From: Prevotellaceae bacterium
GTDB lineage: Bacteria; Bacteroidota; Bacteroidia; Bacteroidales; UBA932
DNA length: 36,428 bases
Reading direction: 5' to 3'
Assembly: GCA_031279695.1 (NCBI GenBank)
Contig: JAITIA010000182.1
Location: 1-36,428, forward strand
The translations under genes were made by a program, and so were the position numbers. Of the stretch, positions 1 through 36,428 are shown one piece after another (positions within the stretch are counted from its first letter, which is position 1; each line of letters begins with the position of its first letter). The notes under the pieces are model-generated. The model had not been told where the DNA came from. It made no database searches and saw nothing but the letters and a program-made list of their open reading frames with translations.

Positions 1-130
1 CCGTAGGGACGGAATGTGGAATTTGTTGATTTAATGTGCAGTCCCTGCGGGACTTGGGCTACGTGGCGGGGTCGCTGCCGGAGGCTAAAGCCACCGGTTA
101 ATAAAGTGTCGTCCCTGCGGGACTTTGCAG
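1..130 (+). repeat. Palindromic intergenic repeat, left-end copy
   Basis: Two hairpins define the unit. Hairpin A is CCGGAGGCTAAAGCCACCGG (78-97), a stem with one A/A mismatch. The spacer TTAATAAAGTG follows, then hairpin B, GTCCCTGCGGGAC (111-123). A second hairpin B at 41-53, preceded by a degraded spacer, suggests a partial tandem unit. The same unit occurs inverted at the right end (about 36351-36428), and a diverged version lies near 8696-8736. No protein-coding signal is seen. The layout resembles REP-type elements, but I cannot name a family. Confidence 0.7.
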
Positions 131-8540: not shown

Positions 8541-8695
8541 AATATTCTCATTTTTAATGTTTTTAATGCGTATAAATCACATTATTTCGGATGTAAAGAT
8601 ACAATTTTTTTTGAAAACAAGATTTTTTTGAAAAAAATTAAAAAAAGATTGAGGCGCTATAGGTGTCTTATAGACAGGAGAAAAGGATGCTTTTT

Positions 8696-8736
8696 GCCCG
8701 CAGGGACGGCACTTTATTAACGGCAGGTGAAACCTG
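8696..8736 (-). repeat. Diverged copy of the palindromic repeat with a swapped hairpin
   Basis: Read on the minus strand, this copy has hairpin CAGGTTTCACCTG (8724-8736), then CCGTTAATAAAGTG, then CCGTCCCTGCGGGC. Spacer and hairpin B match the left-end copy, but hairpin A is a different sequence that still folds as a stem-loop. Here hairpin B has lost its outer pair. Confidence 0.6.
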
Positions 8737-16720: not shown

Positions 16721-16791
16721 AGGTACCAAGCAGATTCGAACTGCTGTACGCGGTTTTGCAGACCGCTGCCTGACCACTCGGCCATAGTACC
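16721..16791 (-). tRNA. tRNA-Cys (GCA)
   Basis: The minus strand folds as a 71-nt tRNA. The acceptor arm is GGTACTA with TGGTACC (one G-U pair) and the discriminator is T, as expected for Cys. The anticodon arm GCGGT-CTGCAAA-ACCGC has anticodon GCA. The T arm is AGCAG-TTCGAAT-CTGCT. CCA is not encoded. It lies 4 nt after tRNA-Ser and is probably made from the same transcript. Confidence 0.96.
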
Positions 16792-16795
16792 ATTG

Positions 16796-16882
16796 CGGTG
16801 AGGGGGGGATTCGAACCCCCGGTAGAGTTTCCCCTACGTCAGTTTAGCAAACTGGTGGTTTCAGCCACTCACCCACCTCACC
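16796..16882 (-). tRNA. tRNA-Ser (GCT)
   Basis: The 87-nt class II tRNA has acceptor GGTGAGG with CCTCACC and discriminator G. The anticodon loop TTGCTAA gives anticodon GCT. The long variable arm (GTAGGG-GAAA-CTCTAC) is the serine hallmark. The T arm is GGGGG-TTCGAAT-CCCCC. CCA is not encoded. Confidence 0.96.
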
Positions 16883-36248: not shown

Positions 36249-36350
36249 ATAATTTTTTTTGAAAAAAATTTTTTTGAATTTTTTTGGCTAAATCTTTTTT
36301 TGAGGTGCGATGAAAAAATTTTATAGAAAAAAATGCTTGCGGCGGATAGG

Positions 36351-36428
36351 CTGGGACGGAAAGTCCCGCAGGGACTGCACATTATTAACCGGTGGCTTTA
36401 GCCTCCGGCAGCGACCTTGCCACGGCTG
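36351..36428 (-). repeat. Palindromic intergenic repeat, right-end copy (inverted)
   Basis: Read on the minus strand, this copy has hairpin A (36389-36408) identical to the left-end copy. TTAATAATGTG follows, then hairpin B (36363-36375). The sequence before hairpin A (GGTCGCTG) also matches. It continues past the window edge. Confidence 0.7.

Follow-up and report, generated by a model that had tools for sequence, protein, structure and literature searches.

TnpA-REP enzymes, among them that of E. coli, bind hairpins of single-stranded DNA that are preceded by GTAG on the 5' side. Their cleavage sites are CT or CA, and altering the tetranucleotide in one such system moves the cleavage site (PMC8266576). 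In the classification of TnpA-Y1 proteins by Quentin et al. (2018), subclass 1.2 comprises proteins of about 148 aa from Bacteroidota with the motifs DH[VI]H and Y---Q--HH; it is given without REP, typical terminal secondary structures are generally absent, and the automatic REP search of that study demanded a GT[AG]G foot (PMC6006769). Subclass 1.2 TnpA stands as an enzyme group of no known function, reported without partner repeats. Here we describe palindromic repeats from the window, i.e. the whole analysed stretch of 36,428 nucleotides, which makes up contig C189 in a draft genome of 2.9 Mb (261 contigs, 92% complete). Since the same repeats flank a subclass 1.2 gene in related gut bacteria, they appear to be the partner that this group has been lacking. 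The window copies probably represent a REP-like, presumably mobile family whose cognate enzyme in relatives is a TnpA-Y1 transposase with subclass 1.2 hallmarks.

The repeat unit (46 nt) consists of hairpin A (20 nt), an 11-nt linker, two free bases and hairpin B (13 nt). In aligned copies hairpin B is often repeated at about 70 bp, giving B-spacer-A-linker-B periods. The two terminal units of the window are inverted relative to each other, their spacers being TTAATAAAGTG (left) and TTAATAATGTG (right), and their A hairpins are identical, as the original prediction had stated; a further hairpin B in the left unit and a 26-bp terminal inverted repeat (TIR) near the right end had been overlooked (Table 1). 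Each terminal A-B unit folds into two separate hairpins, which are more stable than those of shuffled sequences (z = -3.6 and -3.0). A third copy in the middle of the window had been thought to have the same spacer and hairpin B and a hairpin A of different sequence that still folds. Its linker indeed matches, but its hairpin B is degenerate, and in folding the 43-nt unit does not surpass shuffled sequences (z = -0.46). The middle copy is a decayed relative of the family and thus by itself poor evidence of conserved folding.

Table 1. Repeat features of the window.
Feature	Position	Strand	Basis
Hairpin B (GTCCCTGCGGGAC), first copy, left terminal unit	41..53	+	sequence reading
Hairpin A, CCGGAGGCTAAAGCCACCGG; on the - strand the TTAA foot precedes it	78..97	+	reading, fold, covariation
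Linker TTAATAAAGTG + TC, left terminal unit	98..110	+	reading, aligned copies
Hairpin B, second copy, left terminal unit; 70 bp (one period) after the first	111..123	+	
Degenerate hairpin B (TGCCCGCAGGGAC) of the decayed middle copy; two basal pairs gone	8695..8707	-	
Linker of the middle copy (CACTTTATTAA on +), TTAA foot	8710..8720	-	
Shortened hairpin A of the middle copy, only CAGGT/ACCTG kept	8724..8736	-	
26-bp terminal inverted repeat of the larger element (GGCTAAATCTTTTTTTGAGGTGCGAT)	36286..36311	+	
Hairpin B, right terminal unit	36363..36375	-	
Linker TTAATAATGTG + CA, right terminal unit; TTAA foot of hairpin A	36376..36388	-	
Hairpin A, right terminal unit, identical to 78-97	36389..36408	- (reverse complement)	

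A search of the window's own genome for further copies, as proposed in the original prediction, yielded 254 exact matches to the hairpin B 13-mer and none to the reversed control, which excludes chance genome-wide; linker plus hairpin B, with up to 3 mismatches, occur at 153 places. The copies are dispersed and mostly intergenic. Within a 0.70-Mb contig sample, which was partly picked for contigs with matches and in which open reading frames (ORFs) serve as a proxy for genes, 17 of 140 hairpin B sites lie within ORFs of 110 aa or more, compared to a coding fraction of 0.84, and among 51 internal sites 16 lie between convergent and 7 between divergent genes. In the same sample, 72 sites adjoin a contig end, supporting the earlier suggestion that contigs break at the repeats; the terminal copies owe their inversion to breaks of the assembly within a larger element. 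The family thus consists of high-copy, dispersed, extragenic palindromes as in REPs, and its units are also arranged as inverted pairs, a trait of BIMEs and REPINs. The two bases ahead of GTCCC vary (TC, CA, CC, TT, CT), and the CGTC tag at the palindrome end of CGTC-tagged REPs is absent.

Selection on structure had originally been proposed from the middle copy. While this copy does not bear it out, compensatory changes in hairpin A, both within and between genomes, do. Among 36 distinct copies from the own genome, chosen by linker, hairpin B and the last three bases of hairpin A, the pair 4-17 of hairpin A occurs as G-C, C-G and T-A; 16 cells are changed on both sides at this pair, a value that 1 of 500 shuffles attains (0 of 500 for the covariation score), and it is this one pair that carries the signal within the genome. 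In a set of 42 distinct units taken across genomes, which left out those with a longer A loop, changes on both sides are seen at five pairs (1 of 500 shuffles; cells: 0 of 500), three in hairpin A and two in hairpin B. As related sequences can beat shuffles without any structure, the pair count is the safer measure. At one locus (L148), GTCGCTGCGCGAC stands where hairpin B is usual.

A search for the Y1_Tnp family gave matches in relatives. In a genome of another genus of the same family (G013), a 149-aa gene sits between inverted pairs of the repeat, and a scan of public genomes found 56 loci encoding relatives of the transposase. The flanks of 20 of the closest loci were examined, and L194, a remnant with 26 matched residues, was left out. 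At 18 of the 19 remaining loci a unit directly adjoins the gene, and where the contig extends far enough, units mostly stand on either side in inverted orientation; at the sole exception (L150) the neighbouring unit is degenerate. The unit-gene-unit arrangement of the relatives is the REPtron layout, a Y1 gene flanked by repeats, which is not seen in the own genome. RAYT genes are mostly low-copy; the four copies of the closest transposase in genome PG1894_26 (L139, L141, L161, L172), two of them truncated, are unusual. In the flanks of L140, L143, L161 and L172, read by eye, the units follow an apparent AbiEii-like gene start (..HEVMQQIALAGL..). Two further loci, L144 and L152, lie on contigs labelled Campylobacterota and Planctomycetaceae and carry a Bacteroidota-type transposase gene together with its units; these labels reflect either a binning error or transfer.

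Nearly all full-length members of a set of 81 distinct proteins carry the HUH and Y---Q--HH motifs, and H54, H56, Y114, Q118, H121 and H122 are invariant in 20 aligned proteins, all of which match the IS200 model (20/20). The closest protein (149 aa) reaches 55.4 bits with the NCBIfam IS200 model (cut-off 55) and 31.6 with REP_Tyr_transpos (cut-off 80). Its predicted fold (mean pLDDT 87) best matches the ISDra2 and IS608 transposases, followed by E. coli TnpA-REP. Judged by motifs and by a length near 148 aa rather than by the HMM or tree of Quentin et al., the associated enzyme, which is nearer IS200 than TnpA-REP, fits TnpA-Y1 subclass 1.2, whose length, motifs and Bacteroidota host it shares, and not class-2 TnpA-REP. 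The original proposal of REP elements moved by a RAYT therefore stands as to the association with a Y1/HUH gene in relatives, but the enzyme is no canonical class-2 RAYT and the guide is TTAA instead of GTAG.

In contrast to the published description of subclass 1.2 as lacking an associated REP, most members examined here have hairpin-bearing inverted flanks. For the 68 genes with sufficient flank, 300 bp upstream were compared with 300 bp downstream as inverted repeats. For 56 of the 68 the score lies above the 99th percentile of 422 control placements at other positions of the same loci (median 61 versus 18); a control pairing flanks of different loci has a higher 99th percentile of 69.7, as expected if repeats are common to related loci. 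The tetranucleotide NTAR precedes 12.8% of hairpin ends in the flanks and 2.5% in distal control sequence, with a Fisher p of 4e-10 that ignores the relatedness of loci and refers to a class defined after the flanks were seen. The NTAR-hairpins are oriented, with 46 pointing at the gene and 10 away; in a count by clades at 60% protein identity, which takes relatedness into account, 13 of 21 are inward and 1 outward, compared to 4 of 105 control placements inward. The feet are GTAA (16), ATAA (16), TTAA (10), GTAG (5), TTAG (4), ATAG (4) and CTAA (1), so that GT[AG]G is not the rule 5' of the hairpin: the window family has TTAA, and GTAG accounts for 5 of 56 in the group. NTAR, the foot that typically stands 5' of hairpin A, is a less strict version of GTAG, the guide of REPs. 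At L175, L176, L178 and L182 a second flank type, with TTTCTATAAACAT between hairpins, replaces the NTAR-hairpin layout beside subclass 1.2 genes.

An intact RAYT, the gene that the original prediction had suggested looking for, or other Y1 transposase was not found in the own genome by searches with the Y1_Tnp family, the closest protein and a 20-row profile. Of subclass 1.2 this genome retains a single trace, a 59-aa frame at C140, in which the HUH and Y regions are joined across a deletion and which is nearest to another clade (37%). As the own genome has no intact gene, mobilisation there is inferred rather than shown; the cognate gene may have been lost, or may reside on a short repeat-bounded contig outside the bin, the smallest contigs observed being 2,629 and 2,907 bases. 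The cognate gene was likewise not found in genus mates with 19-36 copies. Among 150 family genomes, at least 10 copies are present in 3 of 4 with the cognate gene and in 10 of 146 without (p 0.002), leaving ten genomes with many copies in which the gene was not detected. An empty-site test at the middle copy failed as the genus mates are too diverged. At L226 (G010), the intergenic region matching that of the middle copy (~1100-1400) contains another two-hairpin family, whose foot is ATAA. By synteny between G013 and Barb4, one orthologous intergenic region was identified that lacks the repeat in Barb4; it holds an unrelated tandem repeat and is thus not a clean pre-insertion site.

Many of the own-genome copies sit in elements of 150-650 bp bounded by 26-bp TIRs, 7 of them complete, whose outer boundary is sharp at GGC. 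TIR sites number 111 in this genome and none in the reversed control. Hairpin B lies within 300 bp inward of 40 of 52 TTTGAGRYGC sites and outward of 4, and for the inner arms there are five or more sequence versions, which combine freely. Five similar elements are present in G013, one with other repeat families, and other G013 copies have no TIR. Like MITEs, the outer element is short and non-coding and has terminal inverted repeats; unlike MITEs, it carries REP units, no target-site duplication is visible by eye in the 7 own and 5 G013 elements, and a partner transposase between the TIRs was found in neither genome. As for an autonomous element, among the TIR sites listed no pair is spaced widely enough for a transposase gene. 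At the closest-transposase loci no TIR of this kind was found within 300 bp of the units, so that the unit layer and the TIR layer are separable.

Either layer, Y1 enzyme or TIR element, could have spread the own-genome copies. With so many copies inside TIR elements, mobilisation by a second machinery is a rival to be reckoned with: the units would be passengers, spread mainly as MITE-like cargo by another transposase. The abundance and sharp boundary of the TIRs, the inward position of hairpin B and the recurrence of a similar container in another genus, once with other repeat families, speak for this view, which we regard as a serious possibility but the less probable one given the TIR-free units beside the closest transposases and in G013 and the missing transposase and target duplication. 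Canonical GTAG REPs mobilised by a class-2 RAYT would share the REPtron layout in its general form and a foot 5' of the hairpins, but with a RAYT score far below and an IS200 score just above cut-off, a TTAA foot and the motif Y---Q--HH, this is improbable.

Hairpins kept chiefly for RNA roles, i.e. termination or mRNA ends, with mobility incidental, would agree with the intergenic position and the excess of convergent over divergent neighbours. However, an Rfam search of the window returned only two tRNAs, none at the hairpins, no long T run follows the stem, and the linkage to a transposase gene and the inverted pairs would be left unexplained, which makes RNA roles an unlikely main cause. 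The clustering at contig ends might also point to an assembly artefact or one duplicated region; this is refuted by copies on many contigs with differing flanks, also in other genomes. The best reading is thus a variant of REP/RAYT built on a class-1 (IS200-like) enzyme, with a two-hairpin unit and a relaxed guide. A wider proposal is that REP systems arose a second time, from class-1 enzymes, and that across Bacteroidota and some further phyla the subclass 1.2 group as a whole is devoted to two-hairpin repeats which are specific to each clade and have NTAR as a relaxed guide; for this we see the chances as evenly balanced.

With REP/RAYT this variant shares high-copy intergenic palindromes, inverted pairs, clade-specific repeats, a Y1/HUH gene flanked by units and a short 5' foot at the hairpin; it differs in its enzyme, IS200-like by score and with subclass 1.2 motifs, in the NTAR guide (TTAA in the window family), in the two different hairpins per unit and in being often nested in TIR elements. 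IS200/IS605 elements (IS608, ISDra2) have the same fold, catalytic motifs and a hairpin with a 5' guide tetranucleotide, whereas the flanks here are inverted high-copy repeats in place of the subterminal hairpins that an IS has. A non-GTAG foot is also known from TnpA-Y1 of class 3 and subclass 2.6, whose structures are atypical, and a high copy number is reported for class 3, but they are different protein classes, and the class 3 foot is CnGA (PMC6006769).

By analogy with TnpA-REP enzymes, the enzyme would bind hairpin A as single-stranded DNA, with the four bases on its 5' side (TTAA in the window family, NTAR generally) as putative guide, would cut at a nearby dinucleotide and would transfer units to new intergenic sites; the own-genome copies would then have been made by an enzyme that is now lost or unassembled. 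A guide ending in A-A predicts cleavage at TT; the unit copies nearest the gene end at CACTT. In the literature searched, with subscription journals and preprints mostly outside its scope, we found neither reports on cleavage or binding by subclass 1.2 nor a link between this subclass and REPs. If the two-hairpin units are its partners, subclass 1.2 becomes a testable REP system with one enzyme and substrate per clade, the varying foot (TTAA, ATAA, GTAA, GTAG) would allow the guide model of how cleavage sites are chosen to be tested directly, and a large class of palindromic repeats fragmenting Bacteroidales drafts would be explained.

Apart from the repeat family, the window contains two neighbouring tRNA genes (16721-16882, - strand), and unrelated short tandem arrays (GACCCCGCAACTGTACGATTGCC; GGCGGATGTCCGCGCAATTTC) are found in intergenic positions at L257 and L229.
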